Part shown: one piece after another, positions 2,164 through 26,995 of the stretch
Layout of the letters: every line of letters starts with the position of its first letter
How positions within the stretch are numbered: the first letter of the stretch is position 1
Source: Leptolyngbya ohadii IS1
Lineage (GTDB): Bacteria; Cyanobacteriota; Cyanobacteriia; Elainellales; Elainellaceae
Reading direction: 5' to 3'
Length of the DNA stretch: 64,000 nucleotides
Assembly (NCBI RefSeq): GCF_002215035.1
Contig: NZ_NKFP01000001.1
Coordinates: 1,299,501-1,363,500, forward strand
Notes under the pieces: generated by a model
Seen by the model: only the letters and a program-made list of their open reading frames with translations
Database searches by the model: none
What the model was told of the DNA's origin: nothing
Made by a program: the position numbers and the translations under genes

Positions 2164-3558
2164 TTAGAAAACTTCAACAGAAATAAAATCACGCACCAGG
2201 CTAACATTGGTTGTATCCCGCACAATTCCAATGCGATCGCGGTTACCGCTAGCGTTCGTGAAATAAATTTCCGTATCCTGTGCTGCGGAGCCAATGCCGC
2301 TTACACTCTTAAACTCCAGGCTGTAGCTTTCGCCAGAAACCGCTTCCTTCACCTGAATCCTATCCTCACCGGGCGTCCAGTCTGTGATCACCGCATAGCC
2401 GTCTCCCTCTTCTACATAGGCAACATAGCTAGACCCACCCAGAACAAAAACATCGCTCCCGCCGCCACCCGTCAAAATATCGAACTGGGGCGACGTACTA
2501 TCTGAGTAACCAAAGCCGTTCAGCTGATCATTCCAATCCGTTCCGACCAGCGTATCATTCCCCGTTGTGCCGTCTATCCGAATTATGTCATTCGGATCTG
2601 TACTCCTACTGGTCACTCGATCGAAATCGCGCTCTACGCTCACATTAACCGTGTCCTTAACGATCGCAATCCGATCCCTGGAACCGCTTGCATCGGTAAA
2701 GTAAATTTCGGTGTCCCGCGCGCTAGAGCCAATACCGCTCACGCTCTTAAACTCTAAGCTGTAGGCACCGTCGGGCACATCCTCCACTCGAATACGGTCT
2801 TCACCGGGCGTCCAATCCTGAATCACGGCGTAGCCGTCTCCTGGCTCTACATAAGAGACACCCCACACGCCGCCCAAAATAAATTCATCACGCCCCGTTC
2901 CCCCAATCAGGGTATCGAACTGGGAAACCGTACTCGCAACGGTGCCAAACCCATTTAGCTCATCATCGCCATCTCCGCCAATTAAAGCGTCATTTCCTCC
3001 TGCTCCCCCCAGCAAATAATCATTGCCACCCTTGCCATCGATCGTGTCATTGCCGTTTCCTCCCTGAAGGAAATCCCGTGCTGCGGTGCCTTCAATATTG
3101 CCGCTGCCCGCTAAGGCAATTCCTTGGTTAATCTCAAGGCTGTTGAAATAGAAATCAGCATTCTGGTTCCAAATTTGAGGAGTCGGTGCCCCTAAGGTCA
3201 GGCTGCGCTGATCAGAGTTGGAATCGATCGTCAGCGTTACCCTGTATCTGTCGTAGAAAACAGGCGTCGAATCGTCTGGATCAGGAACAGAATTGATGGA
3301 AGGGATACGCTGAACTCGTGCATTCACGAGACCACCCGGCTCATCTCCCATCGTAAAGGTCATGGAATAGAGCCAATTGGTTGGGTAAAAGATTCCGGTT
3401 ATTCCAGGGGCGCTATCGATATCTTCAAAGGTATAGGTAACGGTATATCGAGTATCGGACTGTTGTTCGATCGTATATTCCAGATCAGAATCCTCGAAAA
3501 ACTTCTCAATATGTCCGTTGGGATTCTTTCGTCCTCGTCCCGACATTTGAATTGGCAT
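2164..3558 (-). CDS. RTX-like calcium-binding repeat protein with internal duplication
   Basis: 464 residues, started by an ATG with a strong AAGGAGG Shine-Dalgarno. Residues 1-155 are a unique N-terminal beta-rich region without a signal peptide. Residues 157-203 carry haemolysin-type nonapeptide repeats (GGNGNDTIDGKGGND, GGDGDDELNG) that bind Ca2+ in a parallel beta-roll. Then come two tandem copies of a roughly 100-residue module (about 213-312 and 358-458), each containing GDGYAVI-DWTPGEDRI, YSLEFKSVSGIGS and DTEIYFT. Lack of a signal peptide and the RTX repeats fit type I secretion, but no ABC/HlyD genes are in view. Function is probably extracellular or surface; the substrate or partner is unknown. 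It lies just upstream of, and co-directional with, the haemagglutinin gene. Confidence 0.8.
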   Translation of the reverse strand: MPIQMSGRGRKNPNGHIEKFFEDSDLEYTIEQQSDTRYTVTYTFEDIDSAPGITGIFYPTNWLYSMTFTMGDEPGGLVNARVQRIPSINSVPDPDDSTPVFYDRYRVTLTIDSNSDQRSLTLGAPTPQIWNQNADFYFNSLEINQGIALAGSGNIEGTAARDFLQGGNGNDTIDGKGGNDYLLGGAGGNDALIGGDGDDELNGFGTVASTVSQFDTLIGGTGRDEFILGGVWGVSYVEPGDGYAVIQDWTPGEDRIRVEDVPDGAYSLEFKSVSGIGSSARDTEIYFTDASGSRDRIAIVKDTVNVSVERDFDRVTSRSTDPNDIIRIDGTTGNDTLVGTDWNDQLNGFGYSDSTSPQFDILTGGGGSDVFVLGGSSYVAYVEEGDGYAVITDWTPGEDRIQVKEAVSGESYSLEFKSVSGIGSAAQDTEIYFTNASGNRDRIGIVRDTTNVSLVRDFISVEVF

Positions 3559-3905
3559 AGATTTCCTCCTTATCCCTCTCCTTACCCGTCTCCTTATCCC
3601 TCTTTATCCCTTTAAAGATGAGCCGTAGTGACGGGCAATCCAATTAATCTTTACAACAATCCAGATACCTCTAGATTACGGACTTATCGGGGAATGCTAC
3701 AAGATTTATGCAAATGTCTTTACGGTTAAACAAACTTAACAAACAAGCGATGACATAAATGTAACGATCGGTGACGCAGAAATCACCGTACAATCAATCA
3801 AACTGGCAGTCAAATTGGCAGTCAAATTGGCAGTCAAATTAAATAATTCTGCTCCAAATCTGCATTCCTATCTAGCGAAACTCTAGCGAAGCGATTACAA
3901 AGCGA
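3559..3905. other. Divergent intergenic region
   Basis: 347 bp between the leftward RTX-like gene and the rightward sigma-like gene. The RTX side has a purine-rich leader on the minus strand with repeated GGATAAGGAG-type blocks. The sigma side has three tandem 12-bp repeats (separate entry). No open frame looks genuine. It probably holds both promoters, but I cannot point to convincing -35/-10 pairs. Confidence 0.5.
3804..3839. repeat. Three perfect 12-bp tandem repeats
   Basis: TGGCAGTCAAAT occurs three times head to tail, ending 66 bp before the start of the sigma-like gene. The position suggests either a slippage-prone leader or repeated binding sites on one face of the helix. Confidence 0.85.
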
Positions 3906-4553
3906 ATGGGTGAGCTTGACCAGCAGCTACGAGAACTTGTAATAGAAGCCTGTCAGCATCCTCCGGGCAGTCCTAAGCGGCAGCGTGCCCTCACAAAAGT
4001 GATCCGGCTCGCCTCCTCTAAGCTCTGGCGCGACAGTTCACCCCACTATGCCGATGCGCTCCAGCAAACCTGGGTGTACTTTTGTCAAAACGTCTGCGAA
4101 GCCAAAACGGGCAGCCGCTACGATCCCAGCCAGAGTACTGTTCCGACCTGGCTCAATGCTTACCTGAAGCGCCGCCTGCAAGATTTTTATATCGATACGC
4201 AAAAGCAGCAGGCGACCCGCGCCCTGCCCCAAACCTGGCAAACGCGATCGGGCGACGTTGAAGAACTTGATCCGATCGCCAATCTGCCTGCCGAGCCAGA
4301 CGTTCCGCCCCTGCTGGAGGAAGTGCGAGCCTGGGCAGAAGCCGACAAAAGCGGAGAACTGCGGCGCGTTCACATTGAGGGATATCCCCAGATCAACTGT
4401 CAATTACTCATTCTGCGGCGACTGCCCCCCGAAGCCAGCTGGAAAGACCTGGCAGCAGAGTTTGGCTTAACTGTTTCCACACTCAGCAGCTTTTATCAGC
4501 GGCAGTGTATGCCTCGCTTGCGTAAATTTGGTGAGTCCGAGGGATATCTCTAA
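3906..4553 (+). CDS. Sigma-70-like factor of the cyanobacterial DUF1822-linked type
   Basis: 215 residues. The N-terminal half (about 25-105) resembles sigma region 2: a helical block with HYADALQQTWVYFCQN, then PSQSTVPTWLNAYLKRRLQDF. The C-terminal end (about 175-210) resembles region 4, with a helix-turn-helix around SWKDLAAEFGLTVSTLSSFYQRQ and a basic tail. The middle is variable. It is followed after 17 bp by the DUF1822 gene, with the Shine-Dalgarno AAAGGAGG overlapping its stop, so the two are an operon. Inference: an ECF-like regulator for the envelope genes around it. No strong ribosome site is seen before this ATG, so the exact start is less certain than the frame. Confidence 0.7.
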   Translation: MGELDQQLRELVIEACQHPPGSPKRQRALTKVIRLASSKLWRDSSPHYADALQQTWVYFCQNVCEAKTGSRYDPSQSTVPTWLNAYLKRRLQDFYIDTQKQQATRALPQTWQTRSGDVEELDPIANLPAEPDVPPLLEEVRAWAEADKSGELRRVHIEGYPQINCQLLILRRLPPEASWKDLAAEFGLTVSTLSSFYQRQCMPRLRKFGESEGYL

Positions 4554-4570: not shown

Positions 4571-5611
4571 ATGACGCAAAGCAACGCATTTGATATGACT
4601 CTTGCCATTCCCTTACCGATTCCCCAATCTGCGATCGCCCGTGCCGATCGATTTGCCCAGTATCAGCCCAATCCGCAGAAGGCAAGCCAGGTTCGCCAGA
4701 ACACCCTCGCCGTGTGCGTTATGCAGGACTATTTGCAGATGATGGGCATCGACAGCCAGTTGTCCGGCGATAGCTGGAATCCGGTCACTCAAATGATGGC
4801 AGACGTTGCCGATCTGGAAGTTGAGGGCTTAGGGCGGCTGGAATGTCGTCCAGTTTCCCCCAATGGGGTTGCCTGCCCCGTTCCGCCAGAGGTCTGGCAC
4901 GATCGCATTGGCTATGTGGTAGTTCAAATCAATGAGCCGCAGCGGGAAGCCCAGCTCTTAGGCTTTGTGGAAACCGTGGAAGCAGAAGAACTGCCGCTGA
5001 GTCAGCTCCAGCCCCCTGAGAATTTGCTTGATCACCTCGATCGCCTCACCCATCCCGCTACTGCTGCCCAACCGACGATCGCCGCCCAAACCGAATCCCA
5101 ACCGCTCGAATCCCAACCGCTCGAACCTCAATCACTCGAACAGGTTAACCGTTCGCTCACGTCCCTCAGTCAGTGGCTTCAGAATCGCTTTCAGGAAGGC
5201 TGGGAAACGATCGATTCTCTGTTCAGCCCGCGAAATCAGCCTGCCTACGGTTTTCGGAGCAGTGCCTCCACCGTGGAACCCAGTGCTGTGGAGCCAAATA
5301 GCATCCGACGCGCCAAGCGAGTTAATCTGAGCGGTCAGGCGACAGCGCAACCTTTGATTCTTGTGGTCGAAATTCTGCCCCATCCTGAAGAAACAGCGAT
5401 CCGGGTTCAGCTCCACCCTGAACTGAGCGCCTATTTGCCGTCCGGTGTGCGGCTTGCGGTGCTGGACAACATGGACTCGGTGTTTCTCCAAGCCGAATCT
5501 CGCTCAAGCGATAACTATCTCCAGCTCGAATTTAGTGCGGCGACCGGAGAAGCGTTTAGTGTCCAGGTTCAGTCTGAAGGATCGATCGTGACCGAAGCCT
5601 TTGTGATTTAA
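4571..5611 (+). CDS. DUF1822 family protein
   Basis: 346 residues, preceded by a strong AAAGGAGG site. It has the features I associate with cyanobacterial DUF1822: an N-terminal segment with IPLPIPQSAIARADRFA, then LAVCVMQDYLQMMGID, a Trp-containing GYVVVQI strand and QLLGFVETV. A Pro/Gln-rich linker around 165-195 contains short SQPLE repeats. A C-terminal beta-rich domain (about 255-346) includes LILVVEILPHPEE and VRLAVLD. No signal peptide or membrane segment is visible, so it is likely cytoplasmic. DUF1822 proteins are typically coded beside sigma-like and CHAT genes, as here. A regulatory role, for example as an anti-sigma or signal-sensing partner, is inference only. Confidence 0.8.
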   Translation: MTQSNAFDMTLAIPLPIPQSAIARADRFAQYQPNPQKASQVRQNTLAVCVMQDYLQMMGIDSQLSGDSWNPVTQMMADVADLEVEGLGRLECRPVSPNGVACPVPPEVWHDRIGYVVVQINEPQREAQLLGFVETVEAEELPLSQLQPPENLLDHLDRLTHPATAAQPTIAAQTESQPLESQPLEPQSLEQVNRSLTSLSQWLQNRFQEGWETIDSLFSPRNQPAYGFRSSASTVEPSAVEPNSIRRAKRVNLSGQATAQPLILVVEILPHPEETAIRVQLHPELSAYLPSGVRLAVLDNMDSVFLQAESRSSDNYLQLEFSAATGEAFSVQVQSEGSIVTEAFVI

Positions 5612-5681
5612 CAGATTTAACAGAATTGAGAGGATTGAGAACGTCACGCAATTTATCGAATGCTGCCGTAGGGGGTCAGGT

Positions 5682-8411
5682 ATGAAGCGCAGAAAAGGAC
5701 GGTTTTGGCGGTTCATCTGCATTGCAGGCATCACGGCATTTCTCTGTGGGCTGACTCACGGTATTCCGGATCGGGCGATCGGGGCAACCCTTCCTGCGTC
5801 TAGCCTGACCTCGACTTCAATTGCGCCAGCAGCAACTCCGCAAGAACTCCCTTTCTCGATCGCCCAAATTTCTGATTCCCAAACCCTGCTGCAACAGGCT
5901 CAGCGGCTTTATGAGGCAGGACAGTATCAGCAGGCAATTCCGCTGCTTCAGCAAGCCGTTTTGCTCCACGGCACAGAGGAAAATTGGCTTCAGCAAGCCC
6001 TGGCACTCAGCAACCTTTCGCTGACCTATCAGCAGCTTGGTCAATGGACAGAGGCTACACAGGCGATCGAAACCAGCCTGGAGCGGTTAGCAAGCCTGAA
6101 TCGGAGTCCGGCACAGCTTAGTGTTCTGGCGCAAACCCTTGATATTCAGGGGAGACTTTACCTGGCGCAGGGACAGCCCGATCGCGCCCTGCCGGTGTGG
6201 CAACAGGCAGCAGATGTCCATCAACAATCCGGCAATTCCCTGGGTGCCGTCCAGAGCCAGATCAATCAGGCGGAGGCATTGCAGCAGCTTGGCTTATACC
6301 GTCGTGCGATTGCCCAATTAACTGAAGTGGCTCCAGCCCTGACGGAGCAGCCCAACTCTCTTTCTAGCATCATTGCGCTTCGCAGCCTGGGAAATGCCTT
6401 ACTCGTTGCGGGTGATCTGGTTCAGGCACGGCAGAGGCTTGAACAAAGCTTAGCGATCGCTCAGTCGTTTTCCGATCCCGCTGCCCCTAATGAATTGGCT
6501 ACCAGTTTGCTCAGTCTCGGCAATTTAACCCGTGCCGAAGCCCTGGCGCAATTCAGCCAGCAGGGTCGCTCTATCCGCGATGCCATCGCCACACCGCGCA
6601 ACACAGCCCAGCCCGCCTATCAAACATTGCTTGCAGCCCTCGATCTTTATCAGCAAGCAGCAGAGCAGGCACAGACGCTTCAAACTCGGATACAGGCGCA
6701 GCTCAATCGGCTTCAGCTCTTAATCGAGACGCAACAGTGGCAGGCTGCCCAGCAGCTCTATCCCGTGATCCAGGCACAGTTGCCAGCCCTTCCCCCCGGA
6801 CGCAGCACCCTGGAGCAGCAGATTCAGCTTGCCGAAATTGTGATGCAGCGCAGCGAGGATTGGAACCTGACGCCTCAAATTGCCCAGCTTTTAGAAAATG
6901 TCTACCAGCAGGCTTCTGCTTCAAGCGATCGCCGAACCCAATCCTATGCGCTGGGAATGCTGGGCAAACTGTATGAGCTACCGCAGCCAGAACAGGCGCA
7001 AACCTTCACGGAAAAGGCTTTATCGCTGTCGCAGGCGATCGGCGCAACGGATATCTCCTATCGCTGGCAGTGGCAGCTTGGACGACTGCTCAAGGCACAG
7101 GGAAAACGGGACGCTGCGATTGCTGCTTACGATGAAGCAATTCGATCGATTCAGGCATTGCGGAATGATCTGGTGAGCATTAATCGGGATGTCCAGTTTT
7201 CGTTTCGCGAAGCGGTAGAACCCGCCTACCGAGAGTTTGTCAGCCTGCTGCTGCAACCGAATGCCGGTGCCCAACAGTTAATCCGCGCCAGGGAAATCAT
7301 CGAAGGGCTACAGATTGCCGAACTCGATAATTTCTTTCGAGAAGCCTGCCTGGATACTCAGTTTCAGCTCGATCGTGTGGTGGAACAGGAAAATCTTTCC
7401 GCTGCTATTCTGTATCCCATCATTCTTGACGATCGGCTGGAGGTTATCGTCAAACTGCCCCAGCAGCCGCTTCTGCACTATACTGTCTCCGTATCTCAGG
7501 AAACGGTTGAAACCACCGTCGATCGCTTACTGATTGAGCTGAAACGCCCCTTCACGACGCGCAACTTCCAACAGCTCTCGCAGCAGATGTATGAGTGGCT
7601 AGTGCAGCCGATCGCCCCGCAGCTGGGCAACGATTCTGAAGGAACTACAGCCGATCGCCGAATCGATACCCTGGTCTTTGTTTTAGACGGAACGCTGCGA
7701 AATATTCCGATGGCGGCTCTGTATGATGGTAATCATTACCTGGTAGAGCGATACGCCGTTGCCGTTGCTCCCGGACTCCAGCTTCCCGATCCCAAGCCCC
7801 TTCAGTCTCGCAAGGTTCAAGCCCTGGTTGCCGGACTCAGCGAAGCCCGGTCGAATTTCCCTGCCCTGACCTATGTTCAGCAAGAGGTGGAAACTATTCG
7901 TAGCGAACTGGTTAGCACTGTCCTCTTCAATCAGAGCTTTACCCGCAGTAACTTACAGCAGCAGATCCGGTCTGATGCTTACTCGATCGTTCATATTGCA
8001 ACCCACGGGCAATTTAGCTCAAATGCCGAGGAGACGTTTATTCTGGCGTGGGATGACCCGATTAACGTGAATGAACTCCGCAATGTGCTGCAAGCGAGAG
8101 ACCTGAATGCAGAACCGATCGAATTGCTCGTCCTGAGTGCCTGTCAAACCGCAGTGGGCGATCGGCGGGCAGCGTTAGGGTTAGCAGGAATCGCAGTTCG
8201 GGCTGGATCAAGGAGTACGATCGCATCACTCTGGAATTTGGATGACGAATCGGGCGCAGAGTTCATGAGTCGCTTTTATCAAGAACTGCTTCAGCACCCT
8301 ATCTCGAAAGCAGAAGCCCTCCGACGGGCGCAGCAAGCCCTCCTTCAATCCCCCCAATACGCAGCTCCCCGATTTTGGGCACCTTTTATCCTGTTGGGAA
8401 ACTGGCTCTAG
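5682..8411 (+). CDS. Secreted TPR-CHAT (caspase-like) protease
   Basis: 909 residues. Residues 1-34 form a signal peptide (basic MKRRKGRFWR, hydrophobic core, AIGA cleavage region). Residues about 63-500 are tetratricopeptide-type helical repeats (LYEAGQYQQAIPLLQQAV, LYRRAIAQL, GDLVQARQRLEQSLAIA). The C-terminal third is a CHAT domain of the caspase/separase clan with an intact dyad: His775 in HIATHGQF and Cys821 in LSACQTA. It ends with the usual RFWAPFILLGNW. It follows DUF1822 by 70 bp and shares its strand with that gene and the sigma-like gene. The likely role is regulated proteolysis of a periplasmic or outer-membrane partner; the exported haemagglutinin is the obvious candidate. Substrate and activation are not shown by the sequence. 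Confidence 0.88.
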   Translation: MKRRKGRFWRFICIAGITAFLCGLTHGIPDRAIGATLPASSLTSTSIAPAATPQELPFSIAQISDSQTLLQQAQRLYEAGQYQQAIPLLQQAVLLHGTEENWLQQALALSNLSLTYQQLGQWTEATQAIETSLERLASLNRSPAQLSVLAQTLDIQGRLYLAQGQPDRALPVWQQAADVHQQSGNSLGAVQSQINQAEALQQLGLYRRAIAQLTEVAPALTEQPNSLSSIIALRSLGNALLVAGDLVQARQRLEQSLAIAQSFSDPAAPNELATSLLSLGNLTRAEALAQFSQQGRSIRDAIATPRNTAQPAYQTLLAALDLYQQAAEQAQTLQTRIQAQLNRLQLLIETQQWQAAQQLYPVIQAQLPALPPGRSTLEQQIQLAEIVMQRSEDWNLTPQIAQLLENVYQQASASSDRRTQSYALGMLGKLYELPQPEQAQTFTEKALSLSQAIGATDISYRWQWQLGRLLKAQGKRDAAIAAYDEAIRSIQALRNDLVSINRDVQFSFREAVEPAYREFVSLLLQPNAGAQQLIRAREIIEGLQIAELDNFFREACLDTQFQLDRVVEQENLSAAILYPIILDDRLEVIVKLPQQPLLHYTVSVSQETVETTVDRLLIELKRPFTTRNFQQLSQQMYEWLVQPIAPQLGNDSEGTTADRRIDTLVFVLDGTLRNIPMAALYDGNHYLVERYAVAVAPGLQLPDPKPLQSRKVQALVAGLSEARSNFPALTYVQQEVETIRSELVSTVLFNQSFTRSNLQQQIRSDAYSIVHIATHGQFSSNAEETFILAWDDPINVNELRNVLQARDLNAEPIELLVLSACQTAVGDRRAALGLAGIAVRAGSRSTIASLWNLDDESGAEFMSRFYQELLQHPISKAEALRRAQQALLQSPQYAAPRFWAPFILLGNWL

Positions 8412-8836
8412 AAGAATTTTTCCGTTCAAGCATTAGAACTTACTTTAACTGCAAATAAATCCCTCAAGTAGATGGTTATTGGAACGGAAACCCAGTCCCT
8501 AAGGATTGCAAGTTTAAGCATCACAGCTCTGTAAACAGATGCTAATTTTTCTCCTTAAAGATTGTTTGAAGTATTGTAAGAGGAACAACCGTAAAAGAGA
8601 ACTGTTATTAAAATTATCGAAGAAATAAAATAGGTAAGTCAGAAATACTACTCACATAAAATTTAATTAAGTCATATTTTTCCCAGATAGCAAAAAAGAG
8701 TATAGATGACTTGAAATACTCTTCTCACTGCAAATTTTTTTGATTCATAAAAGTACCCCTTTGGGTACGGTTAGGGAACAAGCGCTGCATCAAAATAAAG
8801 CTAATAATTATTTTCCTGTTGATACAGGAGGGATTT
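8412..8836. other. AT-rich intergenic region before the peroxidase
   Basis: 425 bp, noticeably AT-richer than the flanking genes, with no credible gene. It contains a short perfect hairpin 70 bp before the peroxidase start (separate entry). It probably carries the peroxidase promoter. Confidence 0.5.
8753..8768. promoter_or_regulatory. Short perfect inverted repeat upstream of the peroxidase
   Basis: GTACCC-CTTT-GGGTAC, a 6-bp stem with a 4-base loop, lies after a T-run and ends 68 bp before the ATG. It could be an operator or an attenuator-like leader hairpin. Confidence 0.4.
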
Positions 8837-10378
8837 ATGCAGACAACTGTGAAGCCATCATTTCAGAATCTTCCCATGTTCGAGGACTCACTATACCGCA
8901 GCTTCACTCCAATGATGGAAGTAGCTCGCTCGGAAGAAGGCGATTTTGGCAAGCTGTTTCCTGACTTACCCTCTTTTGCGGAAGGACAGAATCGGGCTGA
9001 TGTGCTGCGTCGTCTGCGCGAACTGGGAAAGAAAGGGGGACTGATGGATGCCCAAGATCCGCTTGTGACAATCACAAACCCACTGGACGCGAACTTGAGG
9101 CTTAACCCGGACAACAACAACCCAGAAATGACAGTTGGCTTCACTTTTCTGGGACAATTTTTGGACCACGACATTACCTTTGATCCAACGCCACTTAATT
9201 CGACCGTCACGAATGGTAAAAACCTGCGATCGCCATGCTTCGATCTGGATAGTGTGTATGGACGAGGTCCAGATCGCGACAGCATTCTATACGATCGCTC
9301 CCCTGAGCTAGAACGTCCAGCCCCAACCAAGTTTCTGATTGACATGGATGCTGCCAGCGACCTTCCTCGAACAAGCCAGCAGCGTGCCATTATCGCCGAC
9401 CCTCGCAATGATGAAAACGTAATTATTTCCCAGCTCCATTTGGCATTCCTCAAGTTTCATAATCAGGTAGTCGATTATGTTGTAGAACACAATCCTGCGA
9501 ACGCCAATCCCAAGCAGCTGTTTGAGGAAGCCCGCCATCTGGTGCAATGGCACTACCAATACATCATCGTTAATCAGTTTCTCAAAGCGACGCTCGATCC
9601 TATGGTTTATAGGCAGGTCAAGACAAATGGTCCTACCCTCTTTCAGCCATGTGCAAAACCAAAAATGCCGCGTGAGTTTCAGATTAGTGCCTATCGATTT
9701 GGACATAGCCAGATTCGACCGGGTTACAAAATCAATCAGGGATTTGGTGCGCCAATTTTTGACCCGGTAGTTGATCCACAGGATGGAGACCCGAACGACT
9801 TGCGGGGTGGACGACGAGCACCGCGACGATTTGTGGAGTGGGATGTCTTCTTTAACTTTGGTGTTCAAGAGGTTGCGGTGAAAGATGGTAAAGCTGTTGT
9901 GCAGCCCAAAGTAAAGCGAAACAAGCGAATTGATCCGTTTATTTCTTCCCCGATGTTTGCTCTGCCCGTTGGTCCTGGCTTGCCTGAGCCAGTAGAGGAC
10001 GTTAGAACCCTTGCCGGTCGCAATCTAGAGCGACACCTACAACATGGAATTCCTTCGGGTCAGGCGATCGCTCAGGCTTTAGGATATGCACCGCTAACAT
10101 CGACAGAAACCGCAGAACTCAGGGATCTCAATTTCCACAACAATACCCCGCTGTGGTACTACATCCTGAAGGAGGCGCTGGTGCAGCAGGGTGGACAAAG
10201 ACTGGGGCAGGTCGGTAGCCGAATTGTTGCCGAAGTCTTCTTTGGGCTGTTGCTGAGCGACCCAGACTCCTATTGGAGCAAGAATCGAGCCTGGAATCCT
10301 ACGCTGCCGCGCCGAAATGGAAGAACAGACGGAGACTTTACGATGGTAGATCTCCTGACCTTTGCCAGGGTTGCGTGA
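8837..10378 (+). CDS. Animal-type haem peroxidase (peroxidase-cyclooxygenase superfamily)
   Basis: 513 residues from the ATG at 8837, chosen because AGGAGGG sits 4 bases upstream; an earlier in-frame TTG at 8819 would place this ribosome site inside the gene. Distal site: GQFLDHDITFDP, with His111 next to the Asp that bonds the haem in mammalian enzymes. Proximal His290 lies in AYRFGHSQIRPGY. Other family marks are LYGRG-like VYGRGPDRDS, PRNDEN and LHLAFLKFHNQ. No signal peptide or haemolysin repeats are present, so this is the short single-domain bacterial form. It oxidises halides or phenols with H2O2. It stands alone with its own promoter region, so pathway context is missing. Confidence 0.9.
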   Translation: MQTTVKPSFQNLPMFEDSLYRSFTPMMEVARSEEGDFGKLFPDLPSFAEGQNRADVLRRLRELGKKGGLMDAQDPLVTITNPLDANLRLNPDNNNPEMTVGFTFLGQFLDHDITFDPTPLNSTVTNGKNLRSPCFDLDSVYGRGPDRDSILYDRSPELERPAPTKFLIDMDAASDLPRTSQQRAIIADPRNDENVIISQLHLAFLKFHNQVVDYVVEHNPANANPKQLFEEARHLVQWHYQYIIVNQFLKATLDPMVYRQVKTNGPTLFQPCAKPKMPREFQISAYRFGHSQIRPGYKINQGFGAPIFDPVVDPQDGDPNDLRGGRRAPRRFVEWDVFFNFGVQEVAVKDGKAVVQPKVKRNKRIDPFISSPMFALPVGPGLPEPVEDVRTLAGRNLERHLQHGIPSGQAIAQALGYAPLTSTETAELRDLNFHNNTPLWYYILKEALVQQGGQRLGQVGSRIVAEVFFGLLLSDPDSYWSKNRAWNPTLPRRNGRTDGDFTMVDLLTFARVA

Positions 10379-11084: not shown

Positions 11085-12413
11085 CTAAGCCCCAAATCCA
11101 ACTGGTTTGCGCTTCCCTTTTTGTTCTTGTTTAGATTGTTCTTGTTTAGATTTTTCTTGTTTAGATTGTTCTTGTTTAGATTTTTCTTGTTTAGAAGTTT
11201 GCTTCTGCTTCGATAACAGTTTCATCACTTCATCCGCATAGCGTCCTTGACGCAGCAAACTTGCCATCATCTGCATCGGCTCCGCGACATGGTTGAAAAA
11301 CGCTCGATAGCCCGCGCACAAATAGTTCAATCCGGGTTCTCCGGCAGGAGTGGTGCTAAAGCGATTCTTTGGGCAACCGCCATTGCAAGCAAAACGGACT
11401 TCACATTGGCAGCAGTATTGCGGCAAGTCGTCAGATTTCGCCTGTCCAAATTGGCGCTGCTTTTTTGATGCCACCAGTTCCCGCATTGGTGTTTCCTGAA
11501 TGTTGCCTAGCTTATAGTCTGGTTCGACAAAGTGATCGCAGCAATAGAGATCGCCATTATGTTCCAGGGCGAGTGCCTGACCACAGGTTTTGGCAAAAAT
11601 GCAAACTCCGGGTGTGACGCCAACCCAGTTTGCTAAAGCCGCGTCAAAATGCTGAACAAAAACCGTTCCTACATCCCGCCGCACCCATTCATCGAAAACC
11701 GTGATCAGAAATCGTCCAAACTGCTCTGGTTTCACCGATCGCTCTGTGACGCGGTTTCTTGCCTGAACTGCGGTAGAGCCATCCTCGTTAATGCGCTCAA
11801 CGATCGGAATAAACTGAATGTGTCTCGCTTTTAGCTGGTCGCGAAAGAAGCGGTAAACTTCCAGCGGATAATCTCCATTAACGGCATTCACGGTACAAAG
11901 AATGTTGAAATCCACCTTGTACTTCTGGAGGATTTTCCAGCCCTGCATCACGCGATCGAATGTGCCTTGTCCTCGTTTATCCACGCGATACGCATCATGT
12001 AGGTGCTGAGGTCCATCCACGCTTAACCCAATCAGAAAGTTGTGCTGTTTGAAAAAACGACCCCATTCATCATCTAATTTTGTGCCGTTAGTTTGCAGGG
12101 TATGGCTCACAATCTGCCCTGGTTTTTTGTATTGCTCAATCAGGTCGATCGCACGGCGGAAGAAATCCAATCCCATCAATGTGGGTTCACCGCCCTGCCA
12201 GGCGACGGTCACTTCGGGAGTGCGATGAGCGTTTAGAAGCTGCTGAATGTAGCTCTCTAGCAGATCATCTGCCATCCGAAACTTGCTGCCCGGATAAAGC
12301 TGTTCTTTCGCTAAAAAGAAACAGTATTCGCAGTCTAAATTGCAAATTGCTCCGGTCGGTTTTGCAAGCAGGTGAAACGCCGGAGGGACAGGATCGGGAG
12401 AGGTCGATATCAT
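11085..12413 (-). CDS. Anaerobic sulfatase-maturating enzyme (radical SAM, SPASM)
   Basis: 442 residues, started by an ATG behind AAGGAAAC. The radical-SAM cluster motif CxxxCxxC is at C24, C28 and C31 (AICNLDCEYCFF). The GGEP-type SAM motif (VAWQGGEPTLMG) follows. The C-terminal SPASM region is Cys-rich (CIFAKTCGQ, YCCDHF, QYCCQCEVRFACNGGCPKNRF) for the auxiliary Fe-S clusters. The enzyme oxidises the active-site Cys of type I sulfatases to formylglycine in the cytoplasm without oxygen. The substrate is evidently the sulfatase encoded 38 bp upstream. The last 35 residues are a Lys/Gln/Glu tail built from repeats of SKQEQ/SKQEK, coded by 15-bp DNA repeats, which is not part of the family fold. 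Confidence 0.92.
   Translation of the reverse strand: MISTSPDPVPPAFHLLAKPTGAICNLDCEYCFFLAKEQLYPGSKFRMADDLLESYIQQLLNAHRTPEVTVAWQGGEPTLMGLDFFRRAIDLIEQYKKPGQIVSHTLQTNGTKLDDEWGRFFKQHNFLIGLSVDGPQHLHDAYRVDKRGQGTFDRVMQGWKILQKYKVDFNILCTVNAVNGDYPLEVYRFFRDQLKARHIQFIPIVERINEDGSTAVQARNRVTERSVKPEQFGRFLITVFDEWVRRDVGTVFVQHFDAALANWVGVTPGVCIFAKTCGQALALEHNGDLYCCDHFVEPDYKLGNIQETPMRELVASKKQRQFGQAKSDDLPQYCCQCEVRFACNGGCPKNRFSTTPAGEPGLNYLCAGYRAFFNHVAEPMQMMASLLRQGRYADEVMKLLSKQKQTSKQEKSKQEQSKQEKSKQEQSKQEQKGKRKPVGFGA
11113..11193. repeat. 15-bp tandem repeats inside the maturase gene
   Basis: The core TTCTTGTTTAGA recurs five times at 15-bp spacing, coding alternating SKQEK and SKQEQ pentapeptides near the protein's C-terminus. 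In-frame unit length means copy-number changes leave the frame intact. Confidence 0.85.
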
Positions 12414-12451
12414 GTTTCCTTCCTACATCATGGGGGCTAGCAAACCTACTG

Positions 12452-14785
12452 TTATTGAATTGCCATCGCAATATCTGCTTTTGCTGCGCGATCGTCAAAC
12501 GTTGCTCCACTCAGGTCTACTAGCACTCGTTCGATCGTCCCTGTGAAAGTAAAGGGAGATTCATACGCATCCGATACTGGACTGATTGTGTCGCACCCGA
12601 CATCGAAGGTTTCGTTAAAAGTAAACCAGTAGGGAACCTGCTTCTCAAACCGCCCTTCGCCCACAACCTGTTCGCCCACTCGCAGCGTCACCGTGCCGCC
12701 CGTACCGGGTTTGCCTTCCTCATCGACTTTCACTTCCGCAGAAACAATGCAGTGCCCCAGAGGCAGAGATTCTGTGGAAGAAACGCGATAGCGATCGCTC
12801 GTGAACCAGTTATGCTCCCAGTGCAGCTTGTTGTCTTTGATAAACAGCGTGTAACCAGCGGCTAATCCTCCACAGGCAACCAGTACCCCTTCCGCACCGC
12901 TTTCAGGAATCACAATTTCCGCTGCTAGGGTATGGTGAACATTTTTGGTGTTAGGCGACGTGGCTTCGGGCAAACGAACGGTTTCCGGTAGATAAACGAA
13001 TCGCTGTTTGCCTTTAATATAACTGGGACGCAGGTTGGTATCGGCGCGATTGGCAAAGCGATCGTCCAGGGGTAGCACATTGTACTTTGCTGCTTCTGCC
13101 ATGAACAGATCTTGTAGCTCCCGCAGCTTCTGGGGATTTTGACTCGCCAGGTCATTTGCCTGAGCGAAATCCCGCTCAATGTTGTATAGCTCCCAAATGT
13201 CCTCCTCGAAATCAGTCCCGCCAGACTCCTGCCAGGGGAGTTTCCCGTGACGACAGCCTGCCACCCAGCCGTTGTGATAAAGTGCCCGATTGCTCAAAAT
13301 CTCGAAGTATTGCGTTATGCGGCGACTCGGTGCATCTTTGTCGTCCCAGGTGTAGACGATCGATGTGCCTTCGATCGGTTTTTGCGGCACGCCGTTTACC
13401 TCACGGGGTTCAGGAATGCCTGCGACTTCTAGGAGGGTTGGCGCGAGGTCAATCACATGATGGAACTGCGATCGCAAGCTCCCTTTATCCTTGATTCTGG
13501 CTGGATAGGACACGACCATCGGATTGCGTGTGCCGCCAAAGTGAGACGCAATTTGCTTCATCCACTGAAACGGCGACGACCCTGCCCAACCCCAGGCAAC
13601 GGGATAGTTGTTCTCAAAGCGAGGACTACCGATCTCGTCAATGTGCTTCAGCATTGTGCTGACATCATCCGGGAAGCCCTGCATCGACTTCATCCCGTTC
13701 AGGGTTCCGGTGAGCGAGCCTTCAGGACTGGGACCGTTATCGCCGACGATGTAAATAATCAGGGTATTCTCGCGTAAATTCATCGTCTCCAGTGTATCGA
13801 CGACCCTACCGATCTGCGCGTCTACGTGCTCTATGAATCCGGCGAAGACTTCCTGCATTCGGGCATAGAGCCGCTTTTCATCCGGGGAGCAATCGTCCCA
13901 GGCAGGAATCGAATCGGGGCGAGGCGTAAGCTGGGTATCGGATGGAATCACGCCAAGCTGCTTCTGACGCTCAAACGTAATTTCGCGCTGCCGATCCCAT
14001 CCGTGATCAAATTTGCCTTCATAGCGATCTGCCCATTCCTTCGAGACATGGTGAGGCGAATGACCTGCACCGGGTGCCCAATAGACAAAAAAGGGCTTAT
14101 CGGGTGCGGCAGCTTTTTGTTGAGCAATCCAGGTGACGCATTTTTCCGCCATGCCTTCTGAAAGATGCCAGTTCGGGTCATCCTGCGGCTTTTGGGTCGG
14201 GATTGTGTTTTCGTACAGCGGAGGATTCCATTGATCGGTTTCCCCGCCGTGGAAGCCCCACCAATACTCGAATCCTAAGCCCGTTGCCCAGCGATCGAAG
14301 GGTCCCGCGACACTGGTTTCATAGATCGGCGTCAGATGCCACTTGCCAAACGCAGCCGTGTTATAGCCATTTTGTTTCAGAACTTCGGCAATGGAGGCGC
14401 AATCCTTTGGAACCACACCGTCGTATCCTGGATAGGCAGTCGCCATTTCCATCACGACCCCGGTATGAGCCGTATGGTGGTTGCGTCCGGTTAATAGCGC
14501 GGCACGAGTGGGAGAACACAGCGCAGTTGTATGAAAGCGGTTGTAGCGTAACCCTTCATCTGCTAATTTTTGTAGCGTCGGCATATTGATCGAACCGCCA
14601 AAGGTACTGGCATGTCCAAAGCCCACGTCATCCAGCAAAACCACAAGGATATTGGGGGCATTCTCTGGCGCGGACAGCACTGTTGGAACACCGGGCTGGG
14701 AATCTTTATAAGTAATGCCGATCTGTCCCTGAAACTTCTGGGGCGGCAGCGGCAAACGATCTGATCGGCGGGTGGTGTCAGTCAT
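12452..14785 (-). CDS. Type I arylsulfatase, Cys-type
   Basis: 777 residues from the ATG at 14785, chosen for the AGGAGA site 6 bases upstream; a further upstream start would add 32 residues without support. Metal-binding Asp pair: NILVVLLDDVGFG. The sulfatase signature CSPTRAALLTG has Cys90 as the formylglycine precursor, followed by NHH. Other metal and sulfate ligands: YIVGDNGPSPEG and GTRNPMVVSYPA. The C-terminal quarter is a beta-rich domain. Length is large, as in AtsA-like alkyl/arylsulfatases. No signal peptide is visible, so the enzyme appears cytoplasmic, consistent with maturation by the cytoplasmic enzyme coded next. It liberates sulfate from organic esters. Sulfatase, maturase and DUF202 form one operon. 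Confidence 0.93.
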   Translation of the reverse strand: MTDTTRRSDRLPLPPQKFQGQIGITYKDSQPGVPTVLSAPENAPNILVVLLDDVGFGHASTFGGSINMPTLQKLADEGLRYNRFHTTALCSPTRAALLTGRNHHTAHTGVVMEMATAYPGYDGVVPKDCASIAEVLKQNGYNTAAFGKWHLTPIYETSVAGPFDRWATGLGFEYWWGFHGGETDQWNPPLYENTIPTQKPQDDPNWHLSEGMAEKCVTWIAQQKAAAPDKPFFVYWAPGAGHSPHHVSKEWADRYEGKFDHGWDRQREITFERQKQLGVIPSDTQLTPRPDSIPAWDDCSPDEKRLYARMQEVFAGFIEHVDAQIGRVVDTLETMNLRENTLIIYIVGDNGPSPEGSLTGTLNGMKSMQGFPDDVSTMLKHIDEIGSPRFENNYPVAWGWAGSSPFQWMKQIASHFGGTRNPMVVSYPARIKDKGSLRSQFHHVIDLAPTLLEVAGIPEPREVNGVPQKPIEGTSIVYTWDDKDAPSRRITQYFEILSNRALYHNGWVAGCRHGKLPWQESGGTDFEEDIWELYNIERDFAQANDLASQNPQKLRELQDLFMAEAAKYNVLPLDDRFANRADTNLRPSYIKGKQRFVYLPETVRLPEATSPNTKNVHHTLAAEIVIPESGAEGVLVACGGLAAGYTLFIKDNKLHWEHNWFTSDRYRVSSTESLPLGHCIVSAEVKVDEEGKPGTGGTVTLRVGEQVVGEGRFEKQVPYWFTFNETFDVGCDTISPVSDAYESPFTFTGTIERVLVDLSGATFDDRAAKADIAMAIQ

Positions 14786-15696
14786 TGAGATTCTCCTGAT
14801 GGATACGCGATCGACAGCAATCAATAATGCACATTGACAGACACCCCCGGCAGCCGCCACGATAATACGATGGGAACACATTCGACTGTCGCTACCATCA
14901 AGAGCGCTATTACCCCTAACCCTAATCCCACACCGCCTTTTGCAAGCTGCACGAGTTTAGCCATCTCCAGCCAAGATGAATCAGGGTGTTTGTGCTTATT
15001 GGGGCAGTACAGTCTTTGTAGAATGCGCTCTTCAAAGCATAATGCGTGAGATGCTGAAATTTTGATATGTCACAGCTAAGCCTAACCCGTTCTATGTTTT
15101 ACTCCGTTTTCCTACCTATTTCCTGTTATTTCTGCTTTTAGATAACCGACTATCGTTCAATTCAACCTCTGGCTATAGGAGGAGATCTAAACTTAAGAAA
15201 CTAAATTTCAGCAATAAAATAGTATAGAAATTAAAAGAACTGTTTACTTTGATGATTTTTCAGGTGTTCTGATTATTAATTCCTTGTTACGCTGCTGTTC
15301 CTGTACTGTTCTTCCTGAGATAAGTGAATAGTAAGAAAGTTGAAGGAAAATGCTTTCTTGATTTCGGAAAATTCACCAGTCTAGAATTTGAGAATTGCTT
15401 CTATTGTTCATTGCATCGTTCGTAAAACGTTTGCGCTGTTCTGTTGCAGCAAGGTTTGGATTTCCGATCGCAGTGCTAGATAAAGCTCAAGATGAGCAGG
15501 GGAATATTCAGCTACTCATCTAACCGAAGCATTTTCCGTCGTTCCTGATCGCCAGGCAGTTCATCTCGGTTCAAGCTGTAGCAACCTGCATCAGCTTTCG
15601 CCACTGCTGCTTGACTTCTCCCTTAAGTGTGACGTAATCCTGACATTCCGTTTGGTTTACTGAAAGAGAGGAGAAAAATCAGCCCATGCACAGCCT
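14786..15696. other. Long intergenic region without a recognised gene
   Basis: 911 bp between the divergent sulfatase and receiver genes. An isolated ribosome-site-like TAGGAGGAGA occurs near 15177 with no start codon behind it. The part from 15050 to 15400 is AT-rich. I see no coding segment I can defend; the right end precedes the receiver gene with GAGAGGAG as its likely ribosome site. Confidence 0.5.
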
Positions 15697-21737: not shown

Positions 21738-22776
21738 CTTAATCGGAAATAGGGTAGGCTAAAAGGCAGGTGCAGGGGACAGAGATAGGGCAGGAACGAT
21801 GCTGAGCAATGCCAGAGTGCAAAATAAGCCCCGCGTGTTGCAAAGCTTGACCGGGCTGAGTGTGAGCGAGTTTGAGCAACTGTTTGTGAGCTTTGAGCAG
21901 GCATGGCAGAACTATCTAGAGCAGCATCACATCCAAGCACCGAGGGCAAGACGCTATGGCGGTGGGCGCAAACCGCAGTTGCAAGACAATTGAGATAAGC
22001 TGTTGTTTATCCTGGTGTACTTTCGGCTGTACCCGACGCAGGAAGTGCAGGGCTTTTATTTGGCATCGGGCAACCCCAGGCGCATGAGTGGGTGCACAAG
22101 CTGACCCCAATCCTGCACAAAGCGTTGGGATACGAAAAACAATTGCCCGAACGCAGTCCTTGGCGATTGGAGCGGGTGCTGAAGGAATACCCCATGCTGG
22201 AATTGATCATCGACGGTACCGAGCGGCGCATCACTCGCCCCCAAGATAAAGAGGAGCGCAAGCAGTATTACAGCGGCAAGAAGAAGACCTTCACGGTGAA
22301 GAATTTGGTCATCACTCAGCGTAAAGGCAAGGTGCTGTACCTGAGTGACACGTATGAGGGAAAGAAACATGACAAAGCGATTTGTGACGAGGAGGATTAC
22401 CGTTTTCCCAAAGGCATCCAGTTGTGGAAAGACCCAGGCTTTCAGGGCTATGAACCCGCAGGGGTAAAGACGCATCAACCGAAGAAGAAACCCCGCAACG
22501 GCGAATTAAGTGAGGCAGACAAACAGCGCAATCAAGCGATATCACGGGAACGGGTAGAGATTGAGCATCACATCGGGGGCATCAAGCGGTGCAATATTGT
22601 GGTGCATCCCCTCAGGACTCGAACGGATCACTTTACCGATGCGGTCATGGAAATTGCTTGTGGGCTGCACAACTTCCGGTTAGCTCAGCGCCAGCAGACA
22701 GTTGCCTAACGCTAATAGAGGGCAGAGAGACAAACTGTTTTTCCTGCTTACCTTCTCCTTCCTATTTCCGATTAAG
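21738..22776 (+). mobile_element. IS5-family element, copy 1 (defective)
   Basis: 1,039 bp bounded by perfect 16-bp inverted repeats CTTAATCGGAAATAGG at 21738-21753 and 22761-22776. It separates a channel-like stump from a response-regulator stump, so its flanks are not one interrupted gene. A second, inverted copy lies at 52678-53717; the two share GGCTATT just outside the right end, so the true end may be a few bases further out. No target duplication is evident. Confidence 0.85.
21799..22709 (+). pseudogene. IS5-family (DDE_Tnp_4 type) transposase, disrupted
   Basis: The N-terminal part ends at a TGA at 21991-21993 (after KPQLQDN). Translation resumes in the same frame (DKLLFILVYFRLYPTQEVQG), then a one-base deletion near 22050 shifts it. 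The catalytic part is intact from 22092: MLELIIDGTERRITRP, KKTFTVKNLV, LYLSDTYEGKKHDK and ERVEIEHHIGGIKR. Two lesions make it non-functional. Confidence 0.85.
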
Positions 22777-23032: not shown

Positions 23033-25336
23033 ATGAGTATCGATGGCAACCCCGATCGCCCTGCTTCTGAGACGGTTTATTTGGAATTATCAGATGGTCA
23101 ATCCCACAAGTTTTATGAGGTAACGGTGCTTGGGACAGTAGTAACGATTCGCTATGGACGAATTGGTACACTAGGGCAATCATCAGACAATACTTATGCA
23201 ACACCGGAAAAAGCTCAGACTGAGGCAGCGAAGAGAATCAATGAAAAGTTGAGAAAAGGCTACGTGCGTGTCTCAGTGGAAAACGATCGCCCAACCTCAT
23301 CTGATCAGTTGCCCGCCCCAGCTACATCTCCAACGCCCAGCGGAATCAGTTCACGCATGATTAATCTGGCTGAATTGCCGATCACAATGTCTGGCGGTCG
23401 TAGTGCTCTAAAGTTTCCTCTCCAGCGATCGCTAGTAGCGGTAGAACTTACAGCAACTTGCAACCAAGCTACGTTTACTATCAACCTGCGTATTGGTTCT
23501 AACATTGCCTATCACTTTGATGTTCGTTCCCATCAAGGGCAAGTTGTGCAGAATACCTGCATCACGGGGGGATGGGGAGCCGAAGAACGCCTGCCAATTC
23601 CGGCTGAGTTTATTTCTGATCAACCCTTTACGCTCAGGATTACGGTTGAGCAAACTCTGGTCATTTATCTTAATGGTCAAGTTTTGAGTCGTTATGCTCA
23701 TCGCTTGCCGCCGACCCAGATTAGTACTGTTGAAATTAGCTATCCATCCGGCAATTTGCAGATGCAGTCGGTGCAGGTGTTTGAACAGGTGGAGGGCGAG
23801 ATTGCAGAGCCAACAGGCAATTTCCCTGGGGCTGCATTGGACGATTTCCGGAATCAGGAGCCAACCAGCCTGCCAAACTCTACACCGTCACTGCCAGCGA
23901 TAGATCCAACCATTCCTTTCCCCAGCGGTGAACTCTTGCATAAAGCAGTTCGCGGACTAACCTTTTTACCCCGCATCACCCAAAGCCATTTGCCTGCCGT
24001 CAGGTATCCATTGGGTTTTGTCTTCTTTGAGCGGCGATCCTACGATCTAACCATTCCCCTGGCGAGATCGCTGGTTTGTTTCGAGATGGTTGGCACCCTT
24101 ATCAACATGAATTCTGGTGGCTTTACATTATATTTAGCGGCGAACCAGGAGACCTACTATCATTGTGAATTCCGTCCCCATGAGGGGCAAATTAAACATT
24201 GGGTCAGTGTGCGTGGAAAGAGTAGTCCACCCGAACACATCAGCATCCCCAGTACGATCGCACCTGGGCAAATTTTTCATTACGTTCTAACGATGACTGA
24301 GAGCAATATCATTGCTTATCTCAACAATCATCCAGTCTTCCACAATCCTCGACCCCAACCTTTTGATCTGCCAGACACGCTGCACCTGAATTACAATGCG
24401 TCTGGATTAAGGCTGCAACTCGCCAGAGTGTTAGAACCTGTAAAGGATGAAATGCGGGCTGCTTGTCCAGGCGAAGCGATCGTCACTCCAAACCCTCAAC
24501 CTACAGAAACTCAGGCAGCGATCGCAGGCTCTCCATTGCTGGAAACGTTACCGTCCCGATTCGAGCCGTTGCGACCTTACATTGAAGCTAAGTTGCAGTC
24601 TTACATCAAAATCCATTTGGAAGAACAGGCTCAATGGCTGGATTCCGCCTGGATTGGAGACCCGCTAGAACCCTGGCAGAGCAAAATTGGCGGCTTTCCC
24701 TACCTGCCTGAAGGAACAGACTATCCCACCGATTGCGAAACGGGTGAGATGATGCTATTTCTCATGCAGATTAACTGTGCCGACCTGCCCATAATTGACG
24801 GGCTGGCTCTCCCTCGCCAGGGAATCTTACAGTTCTATTCAGGCTTGAATGTGCCAATGTGTGAGGTGAGTCCTGAACAACATCGCATTCTCTACTTTCC
24901 AGAAGTTTCGTATGACAGGAACGACTTAATCACCGACTTTGGCTTTTTGGTAGAGTATGCCGAAACGGAAGAATGGTATGCCGAAGTTTATCCGTTGACC
25001 TTTTCTGCACACCAGGATTTCTTTTGCGTGACACGGGCTGGTTACACTGAGTCTCTCAATGTTCCTAAAGAATTGGAAACGCTCTCTGAGGAATTTATAA
25101 CGTGGTTGGATGAGCAAGATGACCAGGAAACGATCGATCGGCGCGTCAACAAACTTGGAGGAGAAGTAGAGTATCATTCCTATGTTGATGAAACAGTAGG
25201 AGAAGCAGGAGGAGCGTTGCTTCTGGAACTGAACCACCCATGTGATTGTGATGATTATTTTTACTTTTTCATTGAGACTGAGGATCTGGCTAATTTAGAC
25301 TTTAGCAATGTCGAATCCTACTTTATGCGTCAGTAA
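23033..25336 (+). CDS. WGR / galectin-like / galectin-like / DUF1963 multidomain protein
   Basis: 767 residues, no signal peptide. Residues 14-80: WGR-type domain (VTIRYGRIGTLGQ, with Tyr for the usual Trp). Residues about 115-252: a galectin-like beta-sandwich. It carries HFDVR (His161, Asp163, Arg165), Asn174 and WGAEER (Trp181, Glu184, Arg186), whose spacing equals the galectin HxNxR and N-x6-W-x2-E-x-R sugar-binding residues except Asn to Asp at 163. Residues about 330-470: a second copy of the fold with HCEFR but no W-E-R triad. Residues about 500-767: DUF1963/YwqG-like (WQSKIGGFPYLPEGTDYP, LLELNHPCDCDDYFYFFIETED). The WGR domain suggests a nucleic-acid or modified-protein link and the first galectin domain a beta-galactoside ligand; the combined function is unknown. 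No operon partners. Confidence 0.75.
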   Translation: MSIDGNPDRPASETVYLELSDGQSHKFYEVTVLGTVVTIRYGRIGTLGQSSDNTYATPEKAQTEAAKRINEKLRKGYVRVSVENDRPTSSDQLPAPATSPTPSGISSRMINLAELPITMSGGRSALKFPLQRSLVAVELTATCNQATFTINLRIGSNIAYHFDVRSHQGQVVQNTCITGGWGAEERLPIPAEFISDQPFTLRITVEQTLVIYLNGQVLSRYAHRLPPTQISTVEISYPSGNLQMQSVQVFEQVEGEIAEPTGNFPGAALDDFRNQEPTSLPNSTPSLPAIDPTIPFPSGELLHKAVRGLTFLPRITQSHLPAVRYPLGFVFFERRSYDLTIPLARSLVCFEMVGTLINMNSGGFTLYLAANQETYYHCEFRPHEGQIKHWVSVRGKSSPPEHISIPSTIAPGQIFHYVLTMTESNIIAYLNNHPVFHNPRPQPFDLPDTLHLNYNASGLRLQLARVLEPVKDEMRAACPGEAIVTPNPQPTETQAAIAGSPLLETLPSRFEPLRPYIEAKLQSYIKIHLEEQAQWLDSAWIGDPLEPWQSKIGGFPYLPEGTDYPTDCETGEMMLFLMQINCADLPIIDGLALPRQGILQFYSGLNVPMCEVSPEQHRILYFPEVSYDRNDLITDFGFLVEYAETEEWYAEVYPLTFSAHQDFFCVTRAGYTESLNVPKELETLSEEFITWLDEQDDQETIDRRVNKLGGEVEYHSYVDETVGEAGGALLLELNHPCDCDDYFYFFIETEDLANLDFSNVESYFMRQ

Positions 25337-25597: not shown

Positions 25598-26995
25598 ATC
25601 CCTCTTCCATCATTTAAGCAGAGTTAAAGAGGACGCGCCGTAGCAAAAGGTCATGCATGATGGGGCAATAAAACTGCTGCATCCGCTGGATTAATTGGAT
25701 AAATCCCTGGATGAAGGATGGGATTTCAAACACCTCAAGCCAGGGTTTGAGTCGGTTTAAAGCAATCCAGGGCTCAATCACTAAGCGCAGGTTGTTCAGC
25801 AGGTGTTTCCAACCCCGTTGGCTATTCCACCAAGAGTGTTGGGCAAATATCTGGTGAGACAAAGGGCATTCCCGATTGAAGGCATCAGCGAACAAACTCA
25901 CCATCGTGAAAGCACTCATGACAATCTCCCACCATCGCTCAATCTGCTTGTAATGGGTCACGCGAAAATCCGCCCATCCCAGAGCATCTTTACTCTGCTT
26001 GAGTCCATACTCAATCCAGGTTCGTTCGCCGTAGCGATCCCCAATCTCATCGAGTTTGACCTCCGGCGCATTGCTCATTACATAAGTGGTTGAGTTGTCC
26101 GGTAACGTTTGTGGGTTAGTCGTTAACAACCAGTAGCGAACCGTTCGACGTTTCCCATAAATAATCTCGCTGCGATAGCGAACTTCGGTTTTGCCATTGC
26201 TAAAGGTCCGCCGAAAGGCTTGCCAGGGTTCACAGGTTACCTCTTGGTCTTGGGGCAACCACATCCCGTGGTTCGACCGGATCGCCACGATGTAGGGCAG
26301 ATTCAACGACTCCAATACACGGATAAAGTTGACTTTACTTTCGCCGTACAGACTATCGGCAAGCACTAATTCAAACCGAAATCCCAGCGATAGCAGTTCA
26401 CGGATCATCTCCGCAGCAATCTGCGGTTTCGTTTTGTACTCATCACCCGCTTTGAGCCGCTCTTTGGGCTTGTAAACCTCAAACGATAGGGGCAATATCA
26501 TGCCACGAAATAGGGCATAAGCGGTCACTGCCACGATGCCATTTTCCTTCTTACCCACATTGCCGATGTATTGTCGCTTGACGTAATCGGTGTGCTTCCC
26601 CTTTTTACAGTCGCCCGTTTCGTCAATCAACAGAATCACGGCTTGCCCGTCTAGGAGCTTGAGGATGAGCTTTAAGCGAATCTGTCGCAATCGCGTCACC
26701 GACCAGGGCGATTTCGTCAATAGGTGGTGTAAGCCTTGCTCATTGTCTAAGCCCACTGCTTTCGCAATGGCTGGTAGCGTTTTGCGTTTTAGTTCTGAGA
26801 TCATGCCCACATGCAGGTATTTGAAGGCTTCAAAGCTTCGCACTTCGGGAAACAACGGGGCATACCATTCACAATATTCATCGACAAAGCGCAGGGTAGG
26901 ACGAGCCGCACGAGGTTCTACCATCACCGCCTCCACGTCTGCAAGAACCACCCTTCTAGTCTAATTTTTCCTCTCCAATATGATGGAAGAGGGGT
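25598..26995 (-). mobile_element. IS701-family element, copy 1
   Basis: About 1.4 kb with perfect 14-bp inverted repeats CCCTCTTCCATCAT at 25600-25613 and 26980-26993. The ends read TAT and TA outside the repeats; TAT may be a short target duplication. The transposase gene is intact, so the element may be mobile. Confidence 0.85.
25614..26924 (-). CDS. IS701-family transposase
   Basis: 436 residues from the ATG at 26924, chosen for GGAGG five bases upstream; this gives the same length as the paralogue at 49506. DDE residues: first Asp in AVILLIDETGDCKKG, second in FELVLADSLYGES, Glu in WIEYGLKQSKDALGWADFRV. It ends close to the left inverted repeat. It is about two-thirds identical in sequence to the 49506 transposase by eye, so the two are different elements of one family rather than recent copies. 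Confidence 0.92.
   Translation of the reverse strand: MVEPRAARPTLRFVDEYCEWYAPLFPEVRSFEAFKYLHVGMISELKRKTLPAIAKAVGLDNEQGLHHLLTKSPWSVTRLRQIRLKLILKLLDGQAVILLIDETGDCKKGKHTDYVKRQYIGNVGKKENGIVAVTAYALFRGMILPLSFEVYKPKERLKAGDEYKTKPQIAAEMIRELLSLGFRFELVLADSLYGESKVNFIRVLESLNLPYIVAIRSNHGMWLPQDQEVTCEPWQAFRRTFSNGKTEVRYRSEIIYGKRRTVRYWLLTTNPQTLPDNSTTYVMSNAPEVKLDEIGDRYGERTWIEYGLKQSKDALGWADFRVTHYKQIERWWEIVMSAFTMVSLFADAFNRECPLSHQIFAQHSWWNSQRGWKHLLNNLRLVIEPWIALNRLKPWLEVFEIPSFIQGFIQLIQRMQQFYCPIMHDLLLRRVLFNSA

Follow-up and report, generated by a model that had tools for sequence, protein, structure and literature searches.

The gene at positions 23033..25336 (+ strand) of the window, the 64,000-nucleotide stretch of Leptolyngbya ohadii IS1 DNA analyzed here, is an intact ORF that encodes a 767-aa protein in which Pfam domains and predicted folds follow the order WGR, galectin, galectin-like and DUF1963. 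The union of WGR, galectin and DUF1963 in this protein is a new domain architecture assembled from known families. Given that the Pfam scores for WGR, Gal-bind_lectin and DUF1963 were all far over the curated cut-offs, chance is excluded as their source. No signal peptide or transmembrane (TM) segment was seen in a hydropathy scan of the protein, which is thus most likely cytoplasmic, as had been proposed in the first-pass annotation of this DNA. On these features, the protein most likely serves as a cytosolic glycan-recognition scaffold, and the rearranged three-part combination found in other cyanobacteria suggests a family of sugar-sensing proteins inside bacterial cells. A full-length counterpart was identified in the cyanobacterial genome G450, with 51% identity across residues 7-764 of the window protein.

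The first galectin domain (residues about 107-256; 23351..23800, + strand) was delineated with PF00337, an AlphaFold2 model and galectins of the PDB. The best PF00337 stretch covered residues 140-247, and the scores were 78 bits for the whole protein (E 5.8e-22) and 72.1 bits for the isolated region, against a cut-off of 22.1. The best PDB sequence match for the galectin region was galectin-9 (E 3.3e-21). The AlphaFold2 model, which was built on an alignment (A1) of 13 cyanobacterial galectin domains, was confident (pLDDT 92; pTM 0.87). When this model was compared with the PDB, galectins made up all of the Foldseek matches listed (best E 3.3e-10), and VIA-align gave a Z of 19.0 to Caenorhabditis elegans LEC-6 over 130 residues with an rmsd of 1.8 Å. 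In the model, His161 lies in the strand 157-165, Asn174 in the strand 170-177, Trp181 in the loop that follows the latter strand and Arg186 in the strand 185-188; this predicted placement agrees with the order expected of a galectin sugar site. These strand positions and the Z of 19.0 are consistent with one shared face for His161, Asn174, Trp181, Glu184 and Arg186. By sequence and predicted fold, domain 1 is unambiguously a galectin. Placement of domain 1 in a LamG/concanavalin-like or other jelly-roll family was ruled out, as galectins came first both by sequence and by fold.

The sugar contacts of galectin-1 include His44, Asn46, Arg48, Val59, Asn61, Trp68, Glu71 and Arg73 (PMC11934519). 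In a site table based on galectin-1, the corresponding residues of domain 1 are H161, D163, R165, V172, N174, W181, E184 and R186 (23513..23590, + strand). The first-pass annotation had placed His161, Asn174, Trp181, Glu184 and Arg186 correctly. The site is a near rather than an exact match to galectin-1, with seven of the eight contacts kept; the exception is Asn46, for which domain 1 has Asp163 at the N position of H-F-N-P-R, so that the change falls on a direct sugar contact. Asp at this position is common to the window protein and its relatives in G571, G817 and G450; the G571 protein also keeps seven of the eight contacts, and those of G817 and G450 have lost Glu71/Arg73 as well. Hirabayashi and Kasai reportedly found in 1991 that Asn46Asp abolished binding by galectin-1, which makes lactose binding by the window protein doubtful. 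Classical lactose binding is also doubtful because the Asp recurs in close relatives, two of which are without Glu71/Arg73. In an alignment, the first domain of a Toxascaris galectin has HISVR at this position, and a sponge galectin has HIGVR (PMC13084444). Since natural galectins vary here, an altered ligand appears as possible for domain 1 as no ligand. All eight contacts are intact in the galectins of G826, G722, G660, G127 and G666, which argues that glycan binding is under selection in the wider family.

The second galectin domain (residues about 336-470; 24038..24442, + strand) was recognized by hhalign and by its predicted structure. The first-pass annotation had described it as a second copy of the galectin fold that had lost the W-E-R triad, and both parts of this description were borne out. 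Its family aligned to the family of domain 1 with a probability of 98.6% (E 1.2e-15), and its model (pLDDT 74) matched galectins first in Foldseek (1.4e-8) and in VIA-align (Z 14.8). In the region aligned by hhalign, domain 2 keeps His377 and Arg381; at the positions of Asn46, Asn61, Trp68, Glu71 and Arg73 it has Glu379, Trp, Ser, Pro and His, respectively. The PF00337 profile, which recovered domain 1 readily, gave domain 2 only 13.7 bits, under the 22.1 cut-off. Laminin_G_3 scored 14.4 bits for domain 2, sub-cut-off as well and tied with PF00337; this assignment is ambiguous by sequence alone, and the fold and profile comparisons favor galectin. Judged from its model and profile, domain 2 is therefore a divergent galectin that has no binding triad, though weaker by sequence than domain 1. 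A galectin of the domain 2 type is the sole galectin of the paralogue in the same genome and of the homologues in L001, L002 and G116.

The fusion of these galectin folds to WGR and DUF1963 domains was confirmed. The WGR domain (residues 14-80; 23072..23272, + strand) matched PF05406 with 59.5 bits (cut-off 22). In PARPs, WGR domains dock on DNA breaks. DNA binding by the WGR domain of the window protein is not assured, since the W of its motif is replaced by Tyr (RYGRIG; Y-G-R, not W-G-R). The DUF1963 (YwqG/TYPP) domain (residues 550-760; 24680..25312, + strand) matched PF09234 with 82.8 bits (cut-off 23) and possesses the GGFP motif (KIGGFPYLP, a GGxP motif) and a conserved Gln (LMQIN/ILQFY); the Bacillus subtilis YwqG structure 1pv5 matched residues 504-760 with an E of 2.4e-11. 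The YwqG domain has been proposed to be a protein-interaction or chaperone-like domain (PMC4275035). Genome-wide, WGR and DUF1963 each occur only twice, together in each case: once in the window gene and once in its paralogue.

PF00337 matches over the cut-off were found in 13 cyanobacterial genomes among those searched. In the overlapping samples used, the counts were 2/386 for the phylum, 3/36 for the order, 1/65 and 9/293. The genome searches were centred on cyanobacteria throughout, and the one contig scan gave cyanobacteria only. A WGR domain is in the same ORF as the galectin in nine of the 13 genomes by Pfam, with G710 as a tenth by eye, and all three domains share one ORF in 7/13 genomes, in two domain orders. 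As the first-pass annotation had invited, we searched for cyanobacterial proteins with the domain order of the window protein, and domain scans recovered the same WGR-Gal-Gal2-DUF1963 order in G450 and WGR-Gal-DUF1963 in G571, G826 and G660. In addition, the scans identified Gal-WGR-DUF1963 in G801 and G789, WGR-Gal in G722, G127 and, truncated and by eye, G710, Gal-DUF1963 in G817, galectin alone in G666 and galectin in a different setting in G476.

The DUF1963 domains of these proteins are of two types that are about 20% identical to each other: a Cys-poor type, to which that of the window protein belongs, and a type with CxxC motifs in G826, G660, G801 and G789. The cyanobacterial galectins form two supported lineages in our trees, in which those of G666, G801 and G789 are apart from the rest. 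With only six animal sequences included, a single cyanobacterial galectin clade was not rejected (p-AU 0.319), and we therefore make no claim of transfer from eukaryotes. The triple architecture is rare yet recurrent among the genomes searched. The simplest reading of these sequences is that galectin, WGR and DUF1963 were combined more than once, and such repeated combining would be evidence for joint function. In the one relative of the same genus sampled (G447), the window gene had no match, so the gene is dispensable. Galectin 1 had no match in the phage or plasmid collections, nor in viral contigs by a pattern scan, and a phage or plasmid origin was thus rejected for it. It should be noted that G328:C55 (L009 1200-1741) has a WGR gene that is cut short and an out-of-frame galectin remnant just downstream; the next ORF starts with an apparent C-part of a split DnaE intein.

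The window gene is flanked upstream by a DDE_Tnp_4 transposase gene (22092..22709, + strand; PF13359, 97.2 bits), which is outside the system. Downstream, a DDE_5 transposase gene (25614..26951, - strand; PF13546, 127.3 bits) occupies the place where relatives have a gene for a ~185-aa protein with five predicted TM segments (5-TM). The 5-TM gene is directly downstream of the homologue in L001, G571, G116 and G817 and of the paralogue in the same genome, and 328 bp downstream of it in G450; the adjacency is thus conserved in six loci. No Pfam family matched the two copies of the 5-TM protein scanned, and no match to this protein was found anywhere in the window. The paralogue (G000:C6:3482270-3484366, minus strand) consists of WGR, the domain 2-type galectin and DUF1963. 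The 5-TM gene beside it (L050 5779-6261, minus strand; G000:C6:3481763-3482260) is broken by a stop near codon 119 that comes after a short repeated stretch. The paralogue (L005/L050), L001 and L002 share the WGR, domain 2-type galectin and DUF1963 with the window protein but have a Trp-rich segment (HYWVYG...WEEYHKGQW; residues about 95-190 of the paralogue) in place of galectin 1, and no Pfam family covers this segment. In G826, a gene for a different small hydrophobic protein, without a Pfam match, follows the WGR-galectin-DUF1963 gene (L060 6647-6994).

The best explanation for these results, to which we assign a probability of about 0.42, is that the window protein is a cytoplasmic multidomain recognition protein that senses misplaced glycan. 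Galectin 1 would bind a glycan or glycoconjugate, probably not a plain lactose-type ligand given that Asn46 is Asp, while galectin 2 may be a structural or protein-contact copy. The WGR domain would dock on nucleic acid, by analogy with its role at DNA breaks in PARPs, and DUF1963 would recruit a protein partner. In most close relatives, the protein may work with the 5-TM protein encoded downstream, which would place the sensor at the membrane. The window copy may act alone or with another partner, as no 5-TM gene lies next to the window gene and the one next to the paralogue is interrupted by a stop codon. If the cytosolic galectins of animals are a guide, the likely role is to sense glycan in the wrong place, as a sign of envelope damage or of an invader. 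The proposal of the first-pass annotation, a glycan sensor or a protein of defense or damage response, is plausible. That the family as a whole conducts intracellular glycan surveillance, with galectin reading sugar, WGR reading nucleic-acid damage and YwqG signaling to a membrane protein, and that it was assembled more than once as a counterpart of cytosolic damage sensing by galectins, is an extension that we regard as improbable.

The leading rival, which we hold to be tentative at best, is that the galectin folds of the window subfamily have ceased to act as lectins and now provide scaffold or protein-protein modules, in the manner of the galectin-related proteins of animals that do not bind sugar. 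The change of Asn46 to Asp in the window protein, G571, G817 and G450, the loss of Glu71/Arg73 in G817 and G450, the absence of Asn61, Trp68, Glu71 and Arg73 from galectin 2 and the proposal of DUF1963 as a protein-interaction domain (PMC4275035) all fit this rival. It is, however, at odds with the seven of eight contacts retained in domain 1 of the window protein and in G571, with the eight of eight in the other branch and with the variation of natural galectins such as those of Toxascaris and sponge at the Asn46 position. The housekeeping alternative, in which the protein and its 5-TM partner would handle the cell's own sugar polymers or lipid-linked precursors of exopolysaccharide at the membrane, draws on the conserved adjacency of the 5-TM gene; the sporadic and rare occurrence of the family, the loss or breakage of the partner gene in this organism and the absence of polysaccharide genes beside the loci read make it very unlikely. 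It is scarcely credible that another jelly-roll family (LamG/concanavalin-like) was mistaken for galectin or that the gene is an assembly contaminant. The former has in its favor the sub-cut-off tie of domain 2 with Laminin_G_3 and is refuted for domain 1; against the latter are the location of the gene on a 1.5 Mb contig, an assembly completeness of 100% with 0.58% contamination and the orthologues in other cyanobacteria.

An anti-phage or conflict sensor, with a galectin that recognizes a glycosylated molecule of the invader (phage DNA or protein that has been modified) and a WGR that contacts DNA, is a third option, which we consider unlikely; it is encouraged by a conflict-type locus in G476 and by nothing at the window locus. 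The G476 locus (L045, G476:C248:17000-35000; genes 3085-4227, 4720-8592, 8935-10269, 11763-13163 and 13731-14828, minus strand) has galectins of the same lineage. One of its products is a 1290-aa protein that combines Laminin_G_3, galectin, OAA-family lectin and FGE-sulfatase domains; the others include a protein in which EAD1 is joined to galectin, an AAA ATPase and, by eye, a trypsin-like peptidase. A reverse transcriptase gene lies between two genes for FGE-sulfatase and may mark a diversity-generating retroelement. Such a gene set is similar to the ternary conflict systems described in PMC7159879 and PMC10907252, neither of which mentions galectins. The patchy distribution of the galectin among cyanobacterial genomes also accords with a role in defense. 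At the window locus, in contrast, the annotated flanks carry transposases and no defense genes, and PADLOC gave no full-length match of the window protein to any defense protein model; its match was weak and confined to the WGR part (WGR_XIII; residues 16-91 against 8-82 of 973). The lack of homologues in the phage collection and, by the pattern scan, in viral contigs also speaks against this option.

Compared with galectin-9, galectin-8 and C. elegans LEC-6, domain 1 shares the fold, strand order, spacing and 7/8 contacts, and galectin-8 and -9 have the same tandem two-domain arrangement as the window protein. The latter differs in being bacterial, in its fusion to WGR and DUF1963, in the Asp at Asn46 and in its degenerate second domain. 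To our knowledge, work on galectins has dealt almost entirely with those of animals and fungi. Occurrence of PF00337 domains ("Galactoside lectin family") in cyanobacteria was recorded in a survey that counted them by order, with 39 in its Table 1, and that did not mention WGR or DUF (PMC10655256). Fusions of WGR with YwqG (DUF1963/TYPP) were noted in 2014, with no galectin mentioned (PMC4275035). These fusions have an N-terminal WGR and a C-terminal YwqG-type domain as in the window protein, in which the galectin domains are inserted between both; L003 is the bare WGR-DUF1963 form. In the open-access literature searched, we found no paper that deals directly with galectins of bacteria or with their pairing with WGR, and no description of the WGR-galectin-DUF1963 combination. 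The first-pass view of the architecture as undescribed needs correction for its parts, which have precedents; what is new is the joining of all three domains, the fact that it recurs and the membrane protein linked to it.

The bacterial form of galectin bears on the origin of the family, and the repeated joining of the three domains is a functional clue for DUF1963 and bacterial WGR. A recurrent and apparently cytosolic bacterial galectin, with intact sites in several homologues, would permit direct tests of galectin action inside a bacterial cell. The galectin of G666 (L063 5728-6201, minus strand) is a stand-alone protein of 157 aa with all eight contacts, which makes it the simplest of the cyanobacterial galectins for a binding assay.
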